Source: Flavobacterium hercynium (lineage in GTDB: Bacteria > Bacteroidota > Bacteroidia > Flavobacteriales > Flavobacteriaceae). Taken from it: a DNA stretch of 64,000 bases. The notes below the pieces were generated by a model. The model did no database searches. It was not told where the DNA came from and worked only from the letters and a program-made list of their open reading frames with translations. Position numbers and translations under genes: made by a program. Positions within the stretch are counted from its first letter, which is position 1, and each line of letters begins with the position of its first letter. Below, in pieces: positions 47,554 through 56,803 of the stretch. Location of the stretch: the NCBI RefSeq assembly GCF_002217285.1, contig NZ_MUGW01000016.1, forward strand, positions 1 through 64,000, given 5' to 3'.

Positions 47554-48315
47554 CTATCGAATTTCGCTAACAAATTTTTCAATTTTTCCTGATCCGTTTT
47601 CGCTTAAATGTTTGATAAAAGCACTTCCGATAATAGCGCCTTTTGCGAATTTTGTTGCCTGATTAAAGGTTTCTTTGTTGGAGATTCCGAAACCTATGAT
47701 TTGCGGATTCTTAAGATTCATCGTTGAAATTCTTTCGAAATAGCTTTCCTGTGTATCGCCAAAACCAGATTGAGAACCTGTAACGCTTGCAGAACTTACC
47801 ATATAGATAAATCCGTTAGAAACGCTGTCGATAAAACGAATACGTTCGTCTGATGTTTGTGGTGTAATGAGGAATACATTAATTAATCCGTATTTTTCAA
47901 AAATAGCTTTGTACTCTTCTGCGTAAACATCAACAGGAAGATCCGGAATAATTAATCCATCAATTCCAATTTCTGCACATTTTTGACAGAAAGCTTCAAC
48001 GCCATATTGTAGCATCGGATTAAAATACCCCATAATAATCAACGGAATTTTTACGCTTTCGCGGATGTTCTTCAGCTGGTCAAAAAGGATTTGGGTTGTC
48101 ATTCCGTTATGAAGCGCCTGCGTCGAACTTGCCTGAATGGTAGGTCCATCTGCTAAAGGATCGCTGAATGGTAAACCAATTTCGATTAAATCGACACCAT
48201 TTTTTTCTAAATCCTGAATGATTTGAACGGTATCATTTAAGTTGGGATATCCCGCCGAAAAGTAAATCGATAGGATCTTTTTATCTTCTTGTAATTTTTG
48301 AGTTATTCTGTTCAT
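47554..48315 (-). CDS. trpA: Tryptophan synthase alpha chain
   Basis: 253 residues from the ATG at 48315; an upstream in-frame ATG (48366) adds a non-conserved stretch. TIM barrel converting indole-3-glycerol phosphate to indole plus glyceraldehyde-3-phosphate. The active-site acids are E45 (IEIGLPFSDP) and D56 (PLADGPTIQ). Other signatures are IIMGYFNPMLQYG, GLIIPDLP and YMVSSASVTG. Last gene of the trp operon, separated from trpB by a small GGCT-like gene. Confidence 0.98.
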   Translation of the reverse strand: MNRITQKLQEDKKILSIYFSAGYPNLNDTVQIIQDLEKNGVDLIEIGLPFSDPLADGPTIQASSTQALHNGMTTQILFDQLKNIRESVKIPLIIMGYFNPMLQYGVEAFCQKCAEIGIDGLIIPDLPVDVYAEEYKAIFEKYGLINVFLITPQTSDERIRFIDSVSNGFIYMVSSASVTGSQSGFGDTQESYFERISTMNLKNPQIIGFGISNKETFNQATKFAKGAIIGSAFIKHLSENGSGKIEKFVSEIR

Positions 48316-48381
48316 TATTTTATTTTTTATACTGATAGATTTTCGAAAATCTATCAGGAGTTTCATTTTGCCTTTAAATTA

Positions 48382-48699
48382 TTAACTCTCCATATACACC
48401 CAGGCAGTAATTCCCGAATTCAATTTTACGGAAACTCTTCTGTAGGCGTTGGATTCGAAAAGATCTACTTTTGCCAAATCTTCAGTGGTAACATTAAAGA
48501 CAACTCCGTGTATTGTATCTTCATGATTGTCGCTTGGGACTACCACAACATAATCTGCCATTCCAAATTCTTCTTCTATTTTAAGGCTCTTTAGTTTGTA
48601 GCCCAAAAGCTGATCTGGTGTGCTGGTTAATGTTTTATTGAAAAGACGCATTTGAACTTCTTTTGATCTTAATGTTCCGTAAGAGAATAACTGTTCCAT
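48382..48699 (-). CDS. Gamma-glutamylcyclotransferase-like (GGCT/AIG2) protein
   Basis: 105 residues from the ATG at 48699. The longer ORF extends upstream to 48771 but only by reading through the GC-rich hairpin repeat. YGTLR (7-11) and the acid E82 (DLFESNAYRR) are the fold's catalytic signatures. Acts on gamma-glutamylamines or glutathione-like substrates in relatives; substrate unknown here. It sits between trpB and trpA on the same strand and is transcribed with them, though no link to tryptophan is known. Confidence 0.88.
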   Translation of the reverse strand: MEQLFSYGTLRSKEVQMRLFNKTLTSTPDQLLGYKLKSLKIEEEFGMADYVVVVPSDNHEDTIHGVVFNVTTEDLAKVDLFESNAYRRVSVKLNSGITAWVYMES

Positions 48700-48725
48700 A
48701 ATATTATTTTTCTCGTTTTTTGTTT

Positions 48726-48805
48726 GCGTTAGGGGTAGAGGCGATATCCTTTTGCCGGCGAAGCAAGGCAAAAGATAAAGCCGAAAACCCGACCGAAGGG
48801 AACGC
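48726..48805. repeat. GC-rich palindromic intergenic element
   Basis: About 80 bases, clearly richer in G+C than the surroundings. Outer complementary ends GCGTT/AACGC (48726-48730, 48801-48805) and an inner stem ATCCTTTTGCC/GGCAAAAGAT (48746-48756 with 48767-48776) around a 10-base loop. Looks like a REP-type dispersed palindrome lying in the trpB-GGCT gap. Confidence 0.7.
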
Positions 48806-48820
48806 CCAAATTATTTATTG

Positions 48821-50002
48821 TTATAGTTTAAAATAGTCGATGTAATTGTCTAAATCTTTATCACCACGTCCTGAAAGACTAATTACAACAACATCTGTTG
48901 GTTTAAATTTCTTTTGATCTAAAACGGCAAAGGCATGCGCACTTTCGATTGCTGGTATAATACCTTCCAGTTTAGTAAGTTGTAAGCCGGCGTTCATGGC
49001 ATCATCATCTGTTACGGAGAAAAACTCGCCTCGACCTGTTTGCGCCAAATGTGCGTGCATTGGACCAACTCCGGGATAATCTAATCCTGCTGAAATTGAA
49101 TAAGGCTCGGTAATTTGTCCGTCCGGAGTTTGCATTAAAAGTGTTTTGCAACCGTGAATAATTCCAACTTTTCCCAGTTTACTTGTAGCTGCGCTATGCC
49201 CGCTGTCAATACCTTTTCCGGCTGCCTCAACGGCTATGATTCCAACTTCAGGTTCGTGTAAAAAGTGGTAAAAAGTTCCTGCGGCATTGCTTCCGCCGCC
49301 AATACAAGCTACAACATAATCAGGGTTTTCACGTCCTTCTTTTTCTTTTAACTGGTATTTTATTTCTTCTGAAATAACACTTTGAAAACGGGTTACCATA
49401 TCGGGATAAGGATGTGGTCCAATCGCAGATCCGATGATATAATGGGTGTCAACAGGATTATTGATCCAATCGCGGATTGCTTCGTTTGTGGCGTCTTTTA
49501 AGGTTCTTGAACCTGAAAGTGCTGGACGAACTTCGGCTCCTAACATTTTCATACGGGCTACGTTTGGTGCCTGGCGCGCAATGTCGATTTCGCCCATGTA
49601 CACAATGCATTCCATACCCATTAGCGCGCAAACTGTTGCGGTAGCAACACCATGCTGACCTGCTCCGGTTTCTGCAATGATTCGTTTTTTACCTAAACGT
49701 CTCGCTACTAATATTTGTCCAATCGTATTGTTGACTTTGTGCGCTCCTGTGTGATTAAGATCTTCTCTTTTTAGATAAATCTTGGTGTTGTATTTTTCAG
49801 ATAGACGTTTTGCAAAGTAAAGTGGACTCGGACGTCCAACATAATCTTTAAGTAATTGATCGAACGCTGCTTTGAAATCCGGTTCGCTGGTAATTTTTAA
49901 ATAATTCTGACGTAATTCTTCTACATTCGGATATAGCATTTCTGGAATGTAAGCTCCTCCAAATTCTCCGTAATATCCCTTTTCATTGACATTAAAATTC
50001 AT
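48821..50002 (-). CDS. trpB: Tryptophan synthase beta chain
   Basis: 393 residues, standard TrpB1 length. The PLP lysine is K89 in HTGAHKVNN. Other signatures are AETGAGQHGVATATVCALMG and the phosphate-binding CIGGGSNAAGTFYHF. Joins indole, channelled from TrpA, with serine to give tryptophan. It follows trpF by 8 nt. Confidence 0.99.
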   Translation of the reverse strand: MNFNVNEKGYYGEFGGAYIPEMLYPNVEELRQNYLKITSEPDFKAAFDQLLKDYVGRPSPLYFAKRLSEKYNTKIYLKREDLNHTGAHKVNNTIGQILVARRLGKKRIIAETGAGQHGVATATVCALMGMECIVYMGEIDIARQAPNVARMKMLGAEVRPALSGSRTLKDATNEAIRDWINNPVDTHYIIGSAIGPHPYPDMVTRFQSVISEEIKYQLKEKEGRENPDYVVACIGGGSNAAGTFYHFLHEPEVGIIAVEAAGKGIDSGHSAATSKLGKVGIIHGCKTLLMQTPDGQITEPYSISAGLDYPGVGPMHAHLAQTGRGEFFSVTDDDAMNAGLQLTKLEGIIPAIESAHAFAVLDQKKFKPTDVVVISLSGRGDKDLDNYIDYFKL

Positions 50003-50010
50003 TTTGCTGA

Positions 50011-50637
50011 TTATTTTAGGTTAACAATTTCAAGTTGTCGTTTGAAATTGCTTAATAAGTTTTTATTTTTTAGTCCGGGCTCGATTTCAAATTTACTATT
50101 TACATCGATAGCATATACTGGTAAATTTAGATTTTTTATCGCCGCTATTTCTTCAATTCCTATTCCGCCACTTAAAAAAAATGGTTTTTTGGATTTGTAT
50201 TTTTTTAATATTTCCCAATCGAAAGTAGTTCCATTTCCGCCGGGTAATTTTCCTTTGGTGTCAAAAAGAAAATAATCACAAAGATTTTCAAAAGGCTCTA
50301 AAACATTAAAATCAAAATCGTCTCCAACTGAAAATACTTTTATGATTTCGATTTTTTTACTGATGTTGTTTTTTAATTCTTCACAAAATTCCACAGATTC
50401 CTGTCCGTGTAACTGAATAGCTTGCAGGTTGTGTTTACTTATTTTTTCGATGATATTTTCAACTGATTCGTTGACAAATACACCTACTTTTTTAATCGTT
50501 TGTATAAGCTCCGGAATTGTTCCGTCGCAATATCGAGCGGATTTCTCCCAGAAAATAAATCCCATATAATCGGGTAGGAGTGCGCCTACGTTAATTATAT
50601 TCTCGGGATATTTCATACCGCATATTTTGAGTTTCAT
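50011..50637 (-). CDS. trpF: Phosphoribosylanthranilate isomerase
   Basis: 208 residues, TIM barrel. The catalytic cysteine is C6 in KLKICGMKYPENI, and the aspartate lies in YFLFDTKGKLPGGNGTTFDW. The terminal GGIGIEEI and AIDVNSKFEIEPGLKN phosphate-binding loops are standard. Converts PRA to CdRP. Stand-alone, not fused to TrpC as in enterobacteria. Confidence 0.98.
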   Translation of the reverse strand: MKLKICGMKYPENIINVGALLPDYMGFIFWEKSARYCDGTIPELIQTIKKVGVFVNESVENIIEKISKHNLQAIQLHGQESVEFCEELKNNISKKIEIIKVFSVGDDFDFNVLEPFENLCDYFLFDTKGKLPGGNGTTFDWEILKKYKSKKPFFLSGGIGIEEIAAIKNLNLPVYAIDVNSKFEIEPGLKNKNLLSNFKRQLEIVNLK

Positions 50638-50644
50638 TTCTTTA

Positions 50645-50810
50645 TGTGCTTTAGGCTTTAAGCAATATGCTTTAGGCTTTTTTTTAATTCTTTAAGCTTT
50701 AGGCTTTAAGCTTTTTACTTTGTATTTTTTTAATGCTCTAAGCTTTAGGCTTTATGCTTTATGCTTTTTTACTTTGTGCTGAATGCCTATAGCCTACAGC
50801 CTAAAGCTTA
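50645..50810. repeat. Word-like repeat GCTTTAGGCTTTAAGC between trpF and trpC
   Basis: About 165 bases of shuffled GCTTTAGGCTTTA, GCTTTAAGC and GCTTTATGC words, with the complement GCCTAAAGCTTA at the end, running into the stop codon of trpC (50808-50810). Spacer inside an operon; no ORF. Confidence 0.8.
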
Positions 50811-51587
50811 CAGCCGCGATATAAATTCAATAGCAGCTTTTCCGGCGTTATCAGTTTTCATGAAGTTTTCTCCAATTAAAAAACCGTTGTAACCATAAGG
50901 TCTCAATTCGTTGATGGCTTCGATGGATGAAATGCCGCTTTCTGAAACTTTTACAAAATCATTCGGAATCTGAGCCGCTAATTCTTTGCTAAAGTCTAAG
51001 CTTACTTCGAATGTTTTTAGGTTTCGGTTATTGACACCAATCATATCTAAACTTGGCATGATCGATTTCTCTAATTCTTCCTGGTTGTGAACTTCTAGTA
51101 AAACTTCTAAACCTAATTTCTTTGCAAATTCTGATAATGATTTGATTTCGTCACGGGTTAAAACTGCTGCGATCAACAGAATTAAATCTGCTCCAAAAGC
51201 TTTTGCTTCTAAAATTTGATATTCGTCTACGATAAATTCTTTTCTCAAAAGTGGAATATTTACACTTGCTCGTGCTAAAAGTAAATCGTCTAGAGATCCG
51301 CCAAAGTATTTTCCATCAGTTAAAACAGAGATTCCACTTGCTCCCGCAGTTTCATATCCTTTAACCACTTCTTCTACTGTAAAACTATGATTGATGACTG
51401 ATTTAGAAGGTGATCTTCGTTTGTGTTCTGCTATAATTCCTGTAGCACTTGCTTTTAGTTTTTGACTTAATGAAATGGTTTGTCTTTCAAAAAAAACAGA
51501 ATTCTCTAATTGAGCAACCGGAATAATCGATTTTTTAAGAATGACTTCTCTTTTTTTGTCAAGTATTATTTTATCTAGGATGTTCAT
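50808..51587 (-). CDS. trpC: Indole-3-glycerol phosphate synthase
   Basis: 259 residues. Active-site E54 and K56 in IIAEHKRRSPSK, then FGGSLDDLLLARASVNIPLLRKEFIVDEYQI, LIAAVLTRDE, and the phosphate-binding SESGISS and GFLIGENFM. Closes the pyrrole ring of CdRP to give indole-glycerol phosphate. Its stop codon lies within a word-like repeat. Confidence 0.98.
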   Translation of the reverse strand: MNILDKIILDKKREVILKKSIIPVAQLENSVFFERQTISLSQKLKASATGIIAEHKRRSPSKSVINHSFTVEEVVKGYETAGASGISVLTDGKYFGGSLDDLLLARASVNIPLLRKEFIVDEYQILEAKAFGADLILLIAAVLTRDEIKSLSEFAKKLGLEVLLEVHNQEELEKSIMPSLDMIGVNNRNLKTFEVSLDFSKELAAQIPNDFVKVSESGISSIEAINELRPYGYNGFLIGENFMKTDNAGKAAIEFISRL

Positions 51588-51614
51588 TTTACTATTATTT
51601 AATGATTGAAAGAT

Positions 51615-52007
51615 TTAAGAATTTAAAAATGCTTTTTTATTGCATTCAATTTTGCCATTTAAGTATTTAATGAAATTTGATAAGTTTTGGGATATTTCAA
51701 TACTTAAATCATAACTTTTTTGAATCTCTGATTGATTACAAAACTTTAATTCTCTTGACAGTATTAGCATGCTCCTAACTTCTGCACAACTTCCTTTTGA
51801 TATTTTTAAATATCTGATTAATTGTTTGTTGTTATTGTATTCTGATCTTTCGGCAATATTATTTGTTACTGAAACAACAGCTCTTTTTATTTGATCTTTG
51901 AATCCAAATTCTCTTTGAAAAGCTTGGTTCTCCATTATTTTAAAAATTAATTGAGCTAACAAAATTCCTTTTTTATAAACTTCGAATTCTTCAAAAGATT
52001 TTGTCAT
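51615..52007 (-). CDS. Four-helix-bundle protein inside the trp operon
   Basis: 130 residues of the S23/TIGR02436 type: FEEFEVYKKGILLAQLIFKIM, DQIKRAVVSVTNNIAERSEY, IRYLKISKGSCAEVRSMLILSRELKFC. Lies between trpD and trpC in the same direction with small gaps, so it is co-transcribed. No role in tryptophan synthesis is known. Diverged from the copy at 19429-19788. Confidence 0.92.
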   Translation of the reverse strand: MTKSFEEFEVYKKGILLAQLIFKIMENQAFQREFGFKDQIKRAVVSVTNNIAERSEYNNNKQLIRYLKISKGSCAEVRSMLILSRELKFCNQSEIQKSYDLSIEISQNLSNFIKYLNGKIECNKKAFLNS

Positions 52008-52020
52008 AATTTTTCAATTA

Positions 52021-53013
52021 TTAAATCATTAAATTTTTTAATTTATTTAATGCCTCTAACCCTTTACCAGAAAACAAACTTTCTCTTGCTTGCTCGAATC
52101 CTTCTAGTGGAGTACATTTTGTTACAGTCGAAATTGCCATTGCTGCGTTGGCGCAAACTACATTGTTCTGAGCTTCGTTTCCTTTTCCGGATAAAATATT
52201 GATGAACATATCTGCAGATTCTTCGATGGTTTTTCCACCTTCGATATCACTTTGCGCTAAAAGCGAAACGCCAAAGTCTTCCGGTTTTAGCATGCCTTCC
52301 ATATTGCTTGTGATAATTTTCGTTGGACTTGTTAATGAAATTTCATCATATCCGTCAAGCGAATGTAAAATCGTGAAGTTGATATCTGTATTTTGATACA
52401 AGTAGGCATACATTCTGGCTAGTTCTAAATTGAAAACGCCAACCAATTGATTTTGTGGGAAAGACGGATTTACCATTGGTCCCAACATATTAAAGAATGT
52501 TTTTATCACTAACTCTTTTCTAATCGCACCTACGTTTTTCATCGCAGGATGGAATAAAGGTGCGTGTAAAATACAGATTCCAGCCTTATCAATACATTTT
52601 TCTAAAAATGAATTATCATTACTGAATTTAATACCCATTTTTTCCATGACATTGCTGGATCCTGAAATAGAGGAAACACCGTAATTTCCGTGTTTAGCAA
52701 CTTTTATTCCAGCACCCGCTGAGATAAAAGAAGCTAAGGTTGAAATATTGAAAGTATCTTTTCCGTCACCACCTGTTCCACATAAATCGATGGTATTGTA
52801 CGCTGATAAATCAACACGAATACACATTTCCAGTAGAGCTTCACGAAATCCGGAAAGTTCATCGATTGTAATGCTTCGCATCATAAATACGGTCAAAAAT
52901 GCTGAAATCTGACTTGGATTATAACTTCCGATCGAAATGTTTATCAATACGTCTTTCGCTTCTTCTTTTGAAAGTACTTCGTGATTGATTAATTTATTTA
53001 ATATATTTTTCAT
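52021..53013 (-). CDS. trpD: Anthranilate phosphoribosyltransferase
   Basis: 330 residues. The PRPP-binding loop is LCGTGGDGKDTFNIST, followed by the conserved AKHGNYGVSSISGSSNVMEKMG and FHPAMKNVGAIRKELVIKTFFNMLGPMVNP. Transfers phosphoribosyl from PRPP to anthranilate. Not fused to TrpG. Confidence 0.98.
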   Translation of the reverse strand: MKNILNKLINHEVLSKEEAKDVLINISIGSYNPSQISAFLTVFMMRSITIDELSGFREALLEMCIRVDLSAYNTIDLCGTGGDGKDTFNISTLASFISAGAGIKVAKHGNYGVSSISGSSNVMEKMGIKFSNDNSFLEKCIDKAGICILHAPLFHPAMKNVGAIRKELVIKTFFNMLGPMVNPSFPQNQLVGVFNLELARMYAYLYQNTDINFTILHSLDGYDEISLTSPTKIITSNMEGMLKPEDFGVSLLAQSDIEGGKTIEESADMFINILSGKGNEAQNNVVCANAAMAISTVTKCTPLEGFEQARESLFSGKGLEALNKLKNLMI

Positions 53014-53023
53014 TCTCTTGTAT

Positions 53024-53177
53024 TAGTCTTAAAGTCATAAAGTCGAAAGTCTTCTTGTTTGTGACGTTATTTATTTTTCAATCTTATTTTTTTAGTTTTA
53101 AAAGTGATAGTGATATTTGCTAAAGTCTTTTCTACGAATTTCACTTTATGACTTTCGACATTTGACTTTATGACTTA
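53024..53177. repeat. Inverted word repeat AAGTCATAAAGTCGAAAGTC between trpG and trpD
   Basis: About 28 bases at 53024-53051 (TAAAGTCATAAAGTCGAAAGTC) reappear as the complement at 53151-53177 (GACTTTCGACATTTGACTTTATGACTTA), 100 bases apart. An ~28-bp stem with a large loop could form in the mRNA. No ORF in the gap. Confidence 0.7.
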
Positions 53178-53181
53178 ACTA

Positions 53182-53748
53182 CTAACTCTTAACCCAATTC
53201 TCTAAAATTCTTTTCCCTTTTGGTGTTAAAACACTTTCCGGGTGAAACTGAACGCCTCGAACATCAAAAGTTTTGTGTCTTAGCGACATAATTTGTCCGT
53301 TTTCATCTATTGAAGTAGCTTCAAGAACGTCAGGTAAATTGCTGTCCACAACCCAAGAGTGGTATCTTCCTACTTCGAATTCGTTTCCTAAGCCTTCAAA
53401 TAAAATTTCGTCTGAAACTACCGTTTTTACATTGGTGGCAACACCATGATACACTTTGTCAAGATTCGAAAGTGTTCCTCCAAAAACTTCTCCGATTGCT
53501 TGTTGTCCTAAGCAAACACCTAAGATGCTTTTTGTTGGAGCATATTTTGCGATTACTGCTTTAAGTAAACCCGCTTCGTCAGGAATTCCAGGGCCTGGCG
53601 AAAGTAATATTTTATCGAAAGAAGCGATTTCATCAATTTCGAACTCATCGTTTCTGTAGACTGTTACCTCACAATTTAAATCTTCTAGGTAGTGAACTAA
53701 ATTGTAAGTGAAACTATCGTAATTGTCTATAACTAATATTTTTTTCAT
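53182..53748 (-). CDS. trpG: Anthranilate synthase glutamine amidotransferase subunit
   Basis: 188 residues. Class I amidotransferase triad: C79 (GVCLGQQAIGE), H169 and E171 (VQFHPESVLTP). Oxyanion-loop LLSPGPGIP. Supplies ammonia to TrpE; may also serve PabB, as one TrpG/PabA is often shared. Position in the trp operon favours trpG. Confidence 0.97.
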   Translation of the reverse strand: MKKILVIDNYDSFTYNLVHYLEDLNCEVTVYRNDEFEIDEIASFDKILLSPGPGIPDEAGLLKAVIAKYAPTKSILGVCLGQQAIGEVFGGTLSNLDKVYHGVATNVKTVVSDEILFEGLGNEFEVGRYHSWVVDSNLPDVLEATSIDENGQIMSLRHKTFDVRGVQFHPESVLTPKGKRILENWVKS

Positions 53749-53827: not shown

Positions 53828-55228
53828 TTAAATTTTCTCTGCCATTTCCAGTGCTGTGTTCAATGCTCTAAGTTTGTTGTATACTTCCTGCATTTCGCTT
53901 TCTTCATCAGAGCTTGCTACAATTCCGGCTCCTGCCTGGCAGTGTAATTGGTGATTTTTACTAAGGAAAGTTCGAATCATAATTGCATGGTTAAAGTTAC
54001 CTTCAAAATCCATAAAACCAATGGCGCCTCCGTAGAAATTACGATTTGTTTTTTCGTAATCTTCAATTAGTTGCATAGCTCTGTGTTTTGGAGCTCCGCT
54101 TAAGGTTCCGGCTGGAAAAGTATCTGCAACTACCTGCATTGTTGTGGCTTTTTCATGCAAATGTCCTGTTACTTTAGAAACCAGGTGAATCACGTGCGAA
54201 AAGAACTGAACTTCTCTGTATTTTTCTACCTGAACATCATGACCATTTCTACTTAAATCATTTCTAGCCAAATCGACTAACATGACATGTTCACTGTTTT
54301 CTTTTTTATCTTCAGAAAGTTCTTTGGCTAAAAGAGCATCTTGTTCATCATTTCCGGTTCTTTTGAATGTTCCTGCAATAGGATGAATTTCGGCTTTTCT
54401 GTTTTTTACAATAATTTGAGCTTCTGGTGAAGAACCAAAAATTTTGAAATCTCCATAATCGAAAAAGAATAGGTAAGGAGAGGGGTTGATACTGCGTAAA
54501 GCACGGTAAACATTAAATTCATCACCTTTGAAACCTTGTGTAAAACGACGTGATAATACCAATTGAAATACATCACCACGGAAACAATTCTTTTTTGCCA
54601 ATGCGACATTATGTTTGAATTCTTCGTCGGTTAGATTCGAGAAGCCTTCTCCTTCTTTACTGAATTTATAAGAAGCAATATTTCTGGATTGCAATAATTG
54701 TTCGATTTCTGCAATATTGTTTCTTCCGTCTACGCTATGGCAAAAAATGTAAGCTTCATTTTTGAAGTGATTGATAGCAATGATGTTTTGATACACAGCA
54801 TAAAATACATCGGGAATAGAAGTTGCATCGTCTTTTTTTGCAATAGAAACTTTCTCGAAATAACGAACGGCATCGTAAGAAATGTAACCGAACAAACCAT
54901 TGTTTATAAACTTAAAATCGTTTTTCTCAGACTTAAACTGATTCGAAAATTCCTGAATTACTTCTGGAATATTAGTTGAAGCGCTGATTGCAATTTGCTC
55001 TGCTGATCCGTCAGGAAACGTTTTCGAAATGGTTTCATTTTCGATCTTGATCGTTGCAATTGGATTACAGCAGATGTAAGAGAAACTGTTGTCATTTCCA
55101 TGATAATCACTACTTTCTAATAATAAACTATTCGGAAATTTATCTCTGATTTTAAAATAGATACTTACCGGTGTAATCGTATCGGCAAGAATTTGTTTGT
55201 AATGTGTGTTGAGTATAAAAGGTTTCAA
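53828..55228 (-). CDS. trpE: Anthranilate synthase component I
   Basis: 466 residues. The tryptophan feedback-binding motif LLESS (36-40) is intact, so allosteric inhibition is expected. The catalytic half shows GDVFQLVLSRRF, IHPIAGTFKRTGN, ELSEDKKENSEHVMLVDLARNDL, FPAGTLSGAPKHRAMQLI and GGAIGFMDF. Converts chorismate and ammonia to anthranilate. First structural gene of the operon, preceded by the leader attenuator. Confidence 0.98.
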   Translation of the reverse strand: MKPFILNTHYKQILADTITPVSIYFKIRDKFPNSLLLESSDYHGNDNSFSYICCNPIATIKIENETISKTFPDGSAEQIAISASTNIPEVIQEFSNQFKSEKNDFKFINNGLFGYISYDAVRYFEKVSIAKKDDATSIPDVFYAVYQNIIAINHFKNEAYIFCHSVDGRNNIAEIEQLLQSRNIASYKFSKEGEGFSNLTDEEFKHNVALAKKNCFRGDVFQLVLSRRFTQGFKGDEFNVYRALRSINPSPYLFFFDYGDFKIFGSSPEAQIIVKNRKAEIHPIAGTFKRTGNDEQDALLAKELSEDKKENSEHVMLVDLARNDLSRNGHDVQVEKYREVQFFSHVIHLVSKVTGHLHEKATTMQVVADTFPAGTLSGAPKHRAMQLIEDYEKTNRNFYGGAIGFMDFEGNFNHAIMIRTFLSKNHQLHCQAGAGIVASSDEESEMQEVYNKLRALNTALEMAEKI

Positions 55229-55276
55229 AATATTCGTTTTTTAATTTTTAATATATTTTTTGCTTAAGTTTTGACC

Positions 55277-55310
55277 AAAAAAAAAGGCTTGTCGTGATGA
55301 CAAGCCTTTT
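55277..55310 (-). terminator. Attenuator terminator in the trp leader
   Basis: On the minus strand a perfect 12-bp stem (55299-55310 with 55282-55293, 5-base loop 55294-55298) is followed by nine T residues to 55277. It lies between the leader peptide and trpE. Confidence 0.92.
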
Positions 55311-55353
55311 ATATTTATAGTTTTACAATACCATAGGAAGCTTTGTTCACGAC
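55291..55353 (-). promoter_or_regulatory. trp antiterminator pairing
   Basis: On the minus strand GTCGTGA (55353-55347, including the leader stop codon) is the perfect complement of TCACGAC (55297-55291) in the terminator loop and right arm. Pairing continues with 55346-55343 to 55300-55303 and 55341-55338 to 55304-55307 (one G-U, small bulges), about 15 pairs. It is mutually exclusive with the terminator stem. Confidence 0.8.
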
Positions 55354-55403
55354 GTTTGACGTAAATTCTTCCACCACCAGATATTGTTTAATAATGTTTT
55401 CAT
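55347..55403 (-). CDS. trpL: trp operon leader peptide
   Basis: 18 codons: MKTLLNNIWWWKNLRQTS, stop TGA at 55347-55349. Three consecutive TGG codons at positions 9-11. It starts ~18 bases after a -7 element and ends where the antiterminator strand begins. When charged tRNA-Trp is scarce the ribosome stalls on the TGG run, leaving 55338-55353 free to pair and open the terminator; when tryptophan is plentiful the ribosome reaches the TGA, masks this strand and transcription stops. Too short for standard gene finders. The reading is seen directly; regulation is inferred from the classical model. Confidence 0.9.
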   Translation of the reverse strand: MKTLLNNIWWWKNLRQTS

Positions 55404-55420
55404 ATTGTATTTTGATTTCA

Positions 55421-55428
55421 CAAATATA
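55421..55428 (-). promoter_or_regulatory. Promoter -7 element (TATATTTG) of the trp operon
   Basis: Exact TAnnTTTG match, 17 bases before the leader ATG. No exact -33 TTG; the upstream region is A/T-rich. Confidence 0.65.
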
Positions 55429-55525
55429 TAAATGTAATTTGAATAAAAGGATATAAAAAATAAAAAAAAACGTTTCGAAAAAGAGAAATTTGTTAAATTT
55501 TAAAATTAAAACGGCTGTCAAGCCC

Positions 55526-56803
55526 TTAGTTTCCAATAGCAATTGTATTGTTTACATTCATTCTAAAATCTGGATTCGTTTTAATGTTTGGTAATGCAAA
55601 CAATTCTGTGTTTTTGTATTTTGTATATTCTATATTATTTCCATTGTTAAAATAATTCTGAATTGTAGTATTCATGCTTGATGATTCGCTTGTGATTCCG
55701 TCACTACAATTATTTACGATTAAATTTTTAAAAGTAAATTTTGATAAGTTGGCATCATTTACTTCAATATTTCCTTCGATTATAACAAATGGACTAAAGC
55801 CTGACACAACACTATTTGTTAAGCTAAAGAATGTATTTTCTCTAACATGTACTGATTCTCTAACAAGACCTTGATTATTTTCTTCCAAATTAACTAATGC
55901 AATGTTACTTGCTGTTATATTGGTCATTTTTTTAGTCATATCTGTGTTTTGAATTTTATCATAAGAATCAACTTCAAAGCATCTTGATCCTGAAACATCT
56001 GATGAAAAAGGATGACGAATAGCAATACTATTGCTTATGTTGATTTGTGCTCCCTGTGTGAAGTCAAAATCATCATCTGTGGTTCTAAATGAAATTAGGT
56101 TACTCAAATTCAAATCCCCTCCATAACACTCAAAAGAGTCATCATTTGAAAAACTAACTTGAATATTACTCAGAATTGTTTTTCTTCCAACAGCAGCAAG
56201 CGACAAACCGTTAAGTTCTTTTGCAGCACTTAATTTTCTACCTGCAAATTCGATACGTACATATTTTAAAATTCCGGAATTATCTTCGGCATCCTGACCA
56301 CCATAATGATTTAGTAGTGGATCAAAATCAAAAGGTAAAATTTGAACACCGCCAAGTGCATTTATAGGCGCTTTTCCAAGAACAACAATTCCTCCCCAGT
56401 CTCCCGGTTTTCTGTTTAAGATATCTTTATTTGATGTAAAAACAATAGGATCTGTTTCTAATCCTTCTGCCATTATTTTTGAGCCATTTGTTATTACTAA
56501 TGTTCCGCAGGTTTTGTCGTCTCCACGAATTACAGTTCCCGGTTCTATAGTTAAAGTGGCATTATTTGTTACATATACAACTCCAACCAATTGGTAAACA
56601 AAGCGTTTGTATAATTTAGTGTCTTTGTTAATTGTTCCTGCAATTATATTGGTTGCTTCGCTATATTCTATGTTGGCAGGCTTAAAATTGGTCCAGTTGT
56701 TCAGCCAGTTGTTAGTGCCGGTAATTCCTTTTTTTGGGGGTTGTGCGTGAAGTAAAAATGAGCTTAAAAGACAAAGAAGTGCAATACGTAAATTTGTTTT
56801 CAT
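55526..56803 (-). CDS. Exported parallel beta-helix protein
   Basis: 425 residues. Signal peptide MKTNLRIALLCLLSSFLLHAQ. The rest shows right-handed beta-helix coils: YVTNNATLTIEPGTVIRGDDKTCGTLVITNGSKIMAEG, GDWGGIVVLGKAP, GILKYVRIEFAGR, DDSFECYGGDLNLSNLISFRTTDDDFDF. No T9SS C-terminal domain and no lyase active site is evident. Probably periplasmic or surface; polysaccharide binding is a guess. It has its own -7 element. It runs into the trp leader region with no separate terminator before the trp promoter. Confidence 0.85.
   Translation of the reverse strand: MKTNLRIALLCLLSSFLLHAQPPKKGITGTNNWLNNWTNFKPANIEYSEATNIIAGTINKDTKLYKRFVYQLVGVVYVTNNATLTIEPGTVIRGDDKTCGTLVITNGSKIMAEGLETDPIVFTSNKDILNRKPGDWGGIVVLGKAPINALGGVQILPFDFDPLLNHYGGQDAEDNSGILKYVRIEFAGRKLSAAKELNGLSLAAVGRKTILSNIQVSFSNDDSFECYGGDLNLSNLISFRTTDDDFDFTQGAQINISNSIAIRHPFSSDVSGSRCFEVDSYDKIQNTDMTKKMTNITASNIALVNLEENNQGLVRESVHVRENTFFSLTNSVVSGFSPFVIIEGNIEVNDANLSKFTFKNLIVNNCSDGITSESSSMNTTIQNYFNNGNNIEYTKYKNTELFALPNIKTNPDFRMNVNNTIAIGN

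Follow-up and report, generated by a model that had tools for sequence, protein, structure and literature searches.

Is the sequence directly in front of trpE of Flavobacterium hercynium a tryptophan attenuator, and if so, how could it switch? The window, by which we mean the whole analyzed stretch of 64,000 nucleotides, belongs to contig NZ_MUGW01000016.1 of a 5.26 Mb genome (98.8% complete, 101 contigs), and its minus strand carries a trp cluster whose genes we named on the basis of Pfam domains and gene order. Directly 5' of trpE, the original prediction had placed a -7 element, an 18-codon ORF with three consecutive TGG codons, a strand at 55338–55353, a 12-bp terminator, and a run of nine T, and all of these elements were indeed present on the minus strand where it had positioned them. 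In the direction of transcription, the features are:

55421–55428, minus strand: -7 promoter element TAnnTTTG (TATATTTG), which ends 17 nt 5' of the leader ATG.
55299–55423, minus strand: match to the Rfam family RF01692, model positions 1–131 of 131.
55347–55403, minus strand: leader ORF of 18 codons plus TGA (MKTLLNNIWWWKNLRQTS) with its ATG at 55403, conserved in relatives.
55368–55387, minus strand: strand 1, the 5' arm of the 1:2 protector hairpin, composed of ACAATATC (55387–55380) and GGAAG (55372–55368).
55371–55379, minus strand: TGG TGG TGG, a conserved Trp run and the predicted stall site.
55338–55353, minus strand: strand 2, the antiterminator, which reads GTCGTGA, ACAA, one A, GCTT; its core GTCGTGA (55353–55347) overlaps the leader stop and is extended to 55338.
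55325–55340, minus strand: 3' arm of the 1:2 hairpin, composed of CTTCC (55340–55336) and GGTATTGT (55332–55325).
55282–55310, minus strand: terminator hairpin 3:4 of 12 bp, AAAAGGCTTGTC(atcac)GACAAGCCTTTT, with the loop ATCAC at 55298–55294.
55291–55297, minus strand: TCACGAC, extending from the terminator loop into the beginning of the right arm; target of the antiterminator.
55277–55285, minus strand: nine-T run of the terminator, as read in the sequence.
53828–55228, minus strand: trpE (PF04715, PF00425; listed start TTG), the first gene after the attenuator.
47554–53748, minus strand: remainder of the trp cluster, namely trpG, trpD, an ORF of the 23S_rRNA_IVP family, trpC, trpF, trpB, an ORF of the GGACT family, and trpA.

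The leader stop is separated from the trpE start by 118 nt. The terminator hairpin is also listed by a terminator scan, with 12 pairs, five of them G-C, and a loop of 5 nt. The minimum free energy (MFE) of the 152-nt region is -35.7 kcal/mol (z = -4.17), which none of 200 dinucleotide shuffles equaled, and much of this stability is supplied by the terminator. A better argument against chance than this folding energy is the conservation in relatives described below. Strand 2 had been described as complementary to the left arm, the loop, and the right arm of the terminator, and this holds in the sequence, in which the seven perfect pairs of GUCGUGA with UCACGAC and about eight more pairs with bulges can be read directly.

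As regards the genes themselves, the nearest relatives of the window TrpE within Flavobacterium are 97% identical and come from several species, including F. hibernum (among the best 80 listed). The apparent TTG start of trpE (55226–55228) recurs in close relatives, whose aligned first residue is encoded by TTG in 75 of 81 cases and by ATG in six (matches listed plus the window). The two additional ORFs embedded within the trp cluster are located at 51615–52007 (23S_rRNA_IVP family) and 48382–48771 (GGACT family).

The element belongs to a catalogued family. RF01692 (Bacteroid-trp, "tryptophan peptide leader RNA") matched 55423–55299 over the whole model with a score of 69.4 bits at a gathering threshold of 49; 12 marks in this alignment indicate positions with non-standard pairs. 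It was the sole Rfam match in the whole genome at E ≤ 0.001, and its location 5' of trpE and the trp cluster fits the family. Table 1 of Weinberg et al. (2010; PMC2864571) includes the Bacteroid-trp motif, and a passage in a 2019 study in AEM (PMC6414381) states that the motif is conserved in front of the trp operon of F. psychrophilum and likens it to the E. coli attenuation. Part of a 2021 transcriptome study of F. psychrophilum also mentions clues to leader-peptide attenuation upstream of amino-acid operons (PMC9723704). On the basis of the RF01692 match and these published listings, the window attenuator is an instance of an already described element, orthologous to the catalogued leader RNA. 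In a separate search of the whole genome, runs of five His codons occurred at seven places (two of them overlapping), and by reading we recognized no comparable leader and terminator at any of them.

RF01692 matched 178 of 249 genomes of the family, 156 of them above the cut-off under strict filters. TrpE was found in 230 of the 249, and a comparison of the lists by reading placed the RF01692 matches in 178 of the 230 genomes with TrpE and in none of the 19 without. At the class level, RF01692 was present in seven of 149 genomes, four of which belong to the family of the window. A leader with a TGG run followed by a terminator, whose conservation upstream of trpE the original prediction had proposed to check, was found in 81 of 81 close relatives (80 loci among the matches listed, nearly all titled Flavobacterium, plus the window), at 139 of 146 family-wide upstream loci (a set with one genome of the same genus and one second copy truncated at a contig end), and, in other families within the order, at 30 of 38 loci. 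All 81 close relatives among the matches listed plus the window have WWW, and the 139 family-wide attenuators comprise 120 with WWW and 19 with WW. In 49 of the 52 genomes that have TrpE without an RF01692 match, the upstream region was readable (50 loci), and 45 of these 50 loci still had the leader and terminator, which means that the Rfam model with strict filters overlooks many true members.

From a total of 295 upstream regions, 19 were dropped as being without leader and terminator according to the rule used. Among these are L002 (a second TrpE-like gene), L232 (contig end), L208 (one Trp codon), L073 and L077 (RF01692 match more than 400 nt from trpE and beyond the 450-nt cut), L206 and L285 (leader visible by eye, terminator stem imperfect), and L263, L264, and L266 (leader not in front of trpE). 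The set of 240 distinct attenuators used below excludes L001 and L004, which are copies of the window. Some deviating loci deserve mention in their own right. L208, by eye, has one Trp codon in its leader, yet it retains UCGUGA and the UCACGA terminator. The class-level loci L263, L264, and L266 have an RF01692 match and, directly 5' of trpE, an apparent trpB end, so that the leader must precede another gene of the operon. Two TGG TGG TGG leaders precede a single trpE in L258 and L268 (order-level family f2), which are apparently tandem Trp attenuators; a clear terminator follows leader 1 and an imperfect one follows leader 2, and it was the first leader that we tested. In family f16 with genomes of about 0.6 Mb, L292, L293, L297, and L298 have, before trpE, either a GGCUUGUC-like hairpin followed by a T run or a decayed version of such a hairpin, and in these four genomes we found no Trp-run leader before trpE. 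The hairpins are possibly attenuator relics in reduced genomes.

The sequence TAnnTTTG, which we take to be the Bacteroidetes-type -7 promoter consensus, was located within 60 nt 5' of the leader start in 227 of the 240 distinct attenuators, compared to 109 of 1200 shuffles. Inspection by eye of the attenuator promoter in the window revealed no TTG at the customary -33 spacing. As a side aspect, the distance from TAnnTTTG to the ATG is bimodal and amounts to 4 or 5 nt in 61 of the 227 cases, which would place the transcription start there at or next to the ATG and make the leader-peptide mRNA nearly leaderless.

The central question is which part of the leader could oppose the terminator. UCACGA is found in the terminator of 184 of the 240 distinct attenuators, and 175 of these also contain UCGUGA in the stretch that separates the Trp codons from the terminator. 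These 175 are hereafter termed canonical. UCGUGA pairs with UCACGA in the loop and right arm of the terminator, and it begins 27 or 28 nt from the first TGG in 167 of the 175 canonical attenuators, with a total range of 24–29 nt. In 120 of them, the UGA of this motif is the leader stop codon. The other 55 have UCGUGA within the leader, past its stop, or out of frame, with 27, 24, and 4 cases in frames 0, 1, and 2, respectively. As the spacing to the Trp codons is held in these 55 cases as well, it is the RNA motif, and not a stop codon, that is preserved.

In divergent lineages with an altered terminator loop, reading of the sequences revealed a correspondingly altered strand at an equal distance from the Trp codons. 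The rewritten pairs are GCGAUGA/UCAUCGC (L204), CGUAAUC/GAUUACG (L224), GGAUUCAG/CUGAAUCC (L221), GAUUCAG/CUGAAUC (L223), ACCGGAU/AUCCGGU (L230, L231), GCGAG/CUCGC (L226, L227), UCGCGA/UCGCGA (L209), and GAGAAGC/GCUUCUC (L287). A scan for the longest perfect complement was rejected as a test of the 2:3 pairing, since it returned chance 4- or 5-mers at some loci, and we therefore adopted duplex energies with partner swaps. Over 40 mutually related representatives, one per distinct terminator core, the mean 2:3 energy was -13.76 kcal/mol for the own partners and -10.13 kcal/mol for swapped partners, and 0 of 10000 permutations, which ignore the tree, reached this difference (p = 1e-4). With 24 lineages picked by hand, the respective values were -13.70 and -9.97 kcal/mol (p = 5e-5, permutations again ignoring the tree). 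In divergent lineages, both sides of 2:3 thus tend to change jointly, in line with the compensatory changes that the original prediction had proposed to look for.

The signal is not uniform among loci. When single lineages were tested against shuffles of strand 2, 10 of the 24 were at or below 0.05 and 14 were not significant, and in seven of the 40 representatives (L209, L224, L225, L226, L229, L254, L295), at least 19 of the 39 swapped partners paired better than the own one. The best duplex of L255 differs from the CCGUGA/UCACGG pair spotted by eye, and in the close relatives L186, L187, L190, and L191, a loop change breaks one of the seven core pairs while strand 2 is unaltered. Several representatives of family f5 (L256, L259, L261, L269, L271, L279) rely on the left arm.

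Tentatively, we suggest that the Bacteroidetes trp attenuators may represent a loop-directed variant, a generalization about which we remain somewhat doubtful. The conserved core would be directed against the loop of the terminator and the initial bases of its right arm and would block the nucleation of the hairpin just before it can take place, whereas in the textbook case of E. coli, the left arm is the main target. According to this proposal, the core is fixed at 24–29 nt from the first Trp codon independently of the stop, its sequence has been replaced repeatedly by joint changes on both sides, and at least one family of the order, f5, may have moved the target to the left arm.

The second pairing, the putative 1:2 protector hairpin, has a duplex energy of -13.2 kcal/mol in the window and is present in the MFE structure of the window as well as in the Rfam consensus structure. 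RNAalifold, applied to a MAFFT alignment of 172 canonical sequences, returned the terminator only and no 1:2 hairpin, and for this reason we used the swap test also here, pairing the Trp-codon region with the stretch after UCGUGA. Own combinations averaged -11.33 versus -9.81 for swapped ones (n = 169, p = 2e-4), and the 111 family-wide attenuators among them gave -11.21 versus -9.71 (p = 2e-4). The two mutually exclusive pairings, 1:2 and 2:3, thus both do better in their own than in species-swapped combinations.

These data bear on the simplest alternative, according to which the hairpin simply serves as an intergenic terminator for the gene preceding trpE and the short ORF has arisen by chance. 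A terminator between the 55526–56803 ORF and trpE would require no leader, and many terminators exist in the neighborhood. This explanation has nevertheless almost no probability, as conservation across the family and order extends to the leader, its WWW run, the spacing, and strand 2, both pairings covary, and a second, separate terminator is present further upstream at many loci.

The attenuator would operate as follows. Transcription would begin just past the -7 box, and a ribosome would translate the 18-codon leader. When charged tRNA-Trp is scarce, the ribosome would stall at WWW (55379–55371), covering strand 1 and leaving strand 2 (55353–55338) free to pair with the terminator loop, the start of the right arm, and part of the left arm before the right arm is completed; RNA polymerase could then read through into trpE. 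With plentiful tryptophan, the ribosome would reach the stop codon (55349–55347) and cover strand 2, the terminator (55310–55282) would form, and transcription would stop at the T run. If no ribosome is present, the 1:2 hairpin would help the terminator to win. Leader translation, stalling, read-through, and the response to tryptophan are steps that we infer.

The geometry of the canonical attenuators agrees with this scheme. If the ribosome is assumed to cover 13 nt beyond the A site, stalling with the third Trp codon in the A site leaves UCGUGA free in 175 of 175 cases, and with 17 nt behind and 13 nt ahead assumed for the stop position, a ribosome at the leader stop touches UCGUGA in 175 of 175 and fully covers it in 171. 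We also calculated the folding of the growing transcript. For the window sequence and a ribosome positioned at the third Trp codon, the probability of 2:3 was initially 0.86, remained at 0.97–0.99 until the right arm lacked 4 nt, and then fell to 0.69 with 3 nt missing, 0.31 with 2 nt missing, and 0.02 at full length. With the ribosome placed at the stop, the terminator probability was 0.96–1.00 once no more than 6 nt were missing. When no ribosome was included, 2:3 was ahead until 7 nt remained, both structures were even at 6 nt, and the terminator reached 0.99 at 5 nt. As 2:3 leads without a ribosome until about 6 nt remain, the effect of the protector on the switch point is limited to about 3 nt. 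Across the 175 attenuators, half exposure of the right arm gave mean probabilities of 0.90 for 2:3 and 0.05 for 3:4, with 2:3 exceeding 3:4 in 96.6%; at full length, these values were 0.03, 0.92, and 2.3%, respectively. The equilibrium at full length thus favors the terminator even with a stalled ribosome, and the switch must therefore be kinetic. Kinetic control is accepted for E. coli trp attenuation.

A short ORF with Trp codons before Trp genes could alternatively encode a TnaC-like arrest peptide, on which free tryptophan stalls the ribosome via the nascent leader. We regard this as very unlikely. The residues flanking the Trp run differ widely among species, the leader ends anywhere from 12 to 54 nt past the first TGG, and, because the genes are biosynthetic, a stall at high tryptophan that leads to read-through would regulate them in the wrong direction. 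Similarly improbable is control by a protein (TRAP-like attenuation or the Trp repressor) or by a T-box with an incidental leader ORF. Such systems govern trp genes elsewhere; in the window's genome (98.8% complete, 101 contigs), there were no matches to PF02081 (TRAP, mtrB) or PF01371 (TrpR), for which the respective B. subtilis and E. coli controls were positive, and T-boxes were absent among the Rfam matches up to E = 10 in 55100–55600. Moreover, the features that are conserved are the Trp codons and their spacing to strand 2.

Ribosome-mediated attenuation, as originally predicted, thus remains the best reading of the leader ORF, the terminator, the own-versus-swapped pairings, and the ribosome-position geometry. 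Tandem Trp codons in a leader, an intrinsic terminator before trpE, and an antiterminator that excludes the terminator depending on the ribosome position were all found by analysis of sequence, covariation, and folding, and the element very probably belongs to RF01692 and controls the trp operon by ribosome-mediated transcription attenuation. Its parts, their conservation, both covariations, the spacing, and the order of folding are computational observations.

In comparison to known systems, the agreement with RF01692 extends over the full model (1–131) and the trp gene context. The difference is that the Rfam model stops at GGCUUGUC, the left arm of the terminator, and the right arm and the 2:3 antiterminator lie outside of it. 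The Bacteroid-trp of F. psychrophilum is alike in element, genus, and operon and differs in species, and the passage that describes it (PMC6414381) does not include the antiterminator. In the literature searched, to which the supplement of the 2010 paper did not belong, we found no description of a covarying, stop-independent, mostly loop-directed antiterminator. This antiterminator supplies the on-state that is missing from the published covariance model, which covers the protector hairpin and reaches into the left arm of the terminator, and it does so with covariation across a bacterial family. The E. coli trp attenuator shares the leader peptide with tandem Trp codons and the 1:2, 2:3, and 3:4 pairings with equal logic; the comparison concerns this logic only, and we do not claim sequence homology. 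Strand 3 of the E. coli attenuator consists of the left arm and its 5' flank, whereas the F. hercynium leader has three Trp codons, and the canonical 2:3 core is directed at the loop of the terminator and the initial part of its right arm. The family itself is known, and it is this covarying, stop-independent, mostly loop-directed antiterminator that is new with respect to the literature searched.
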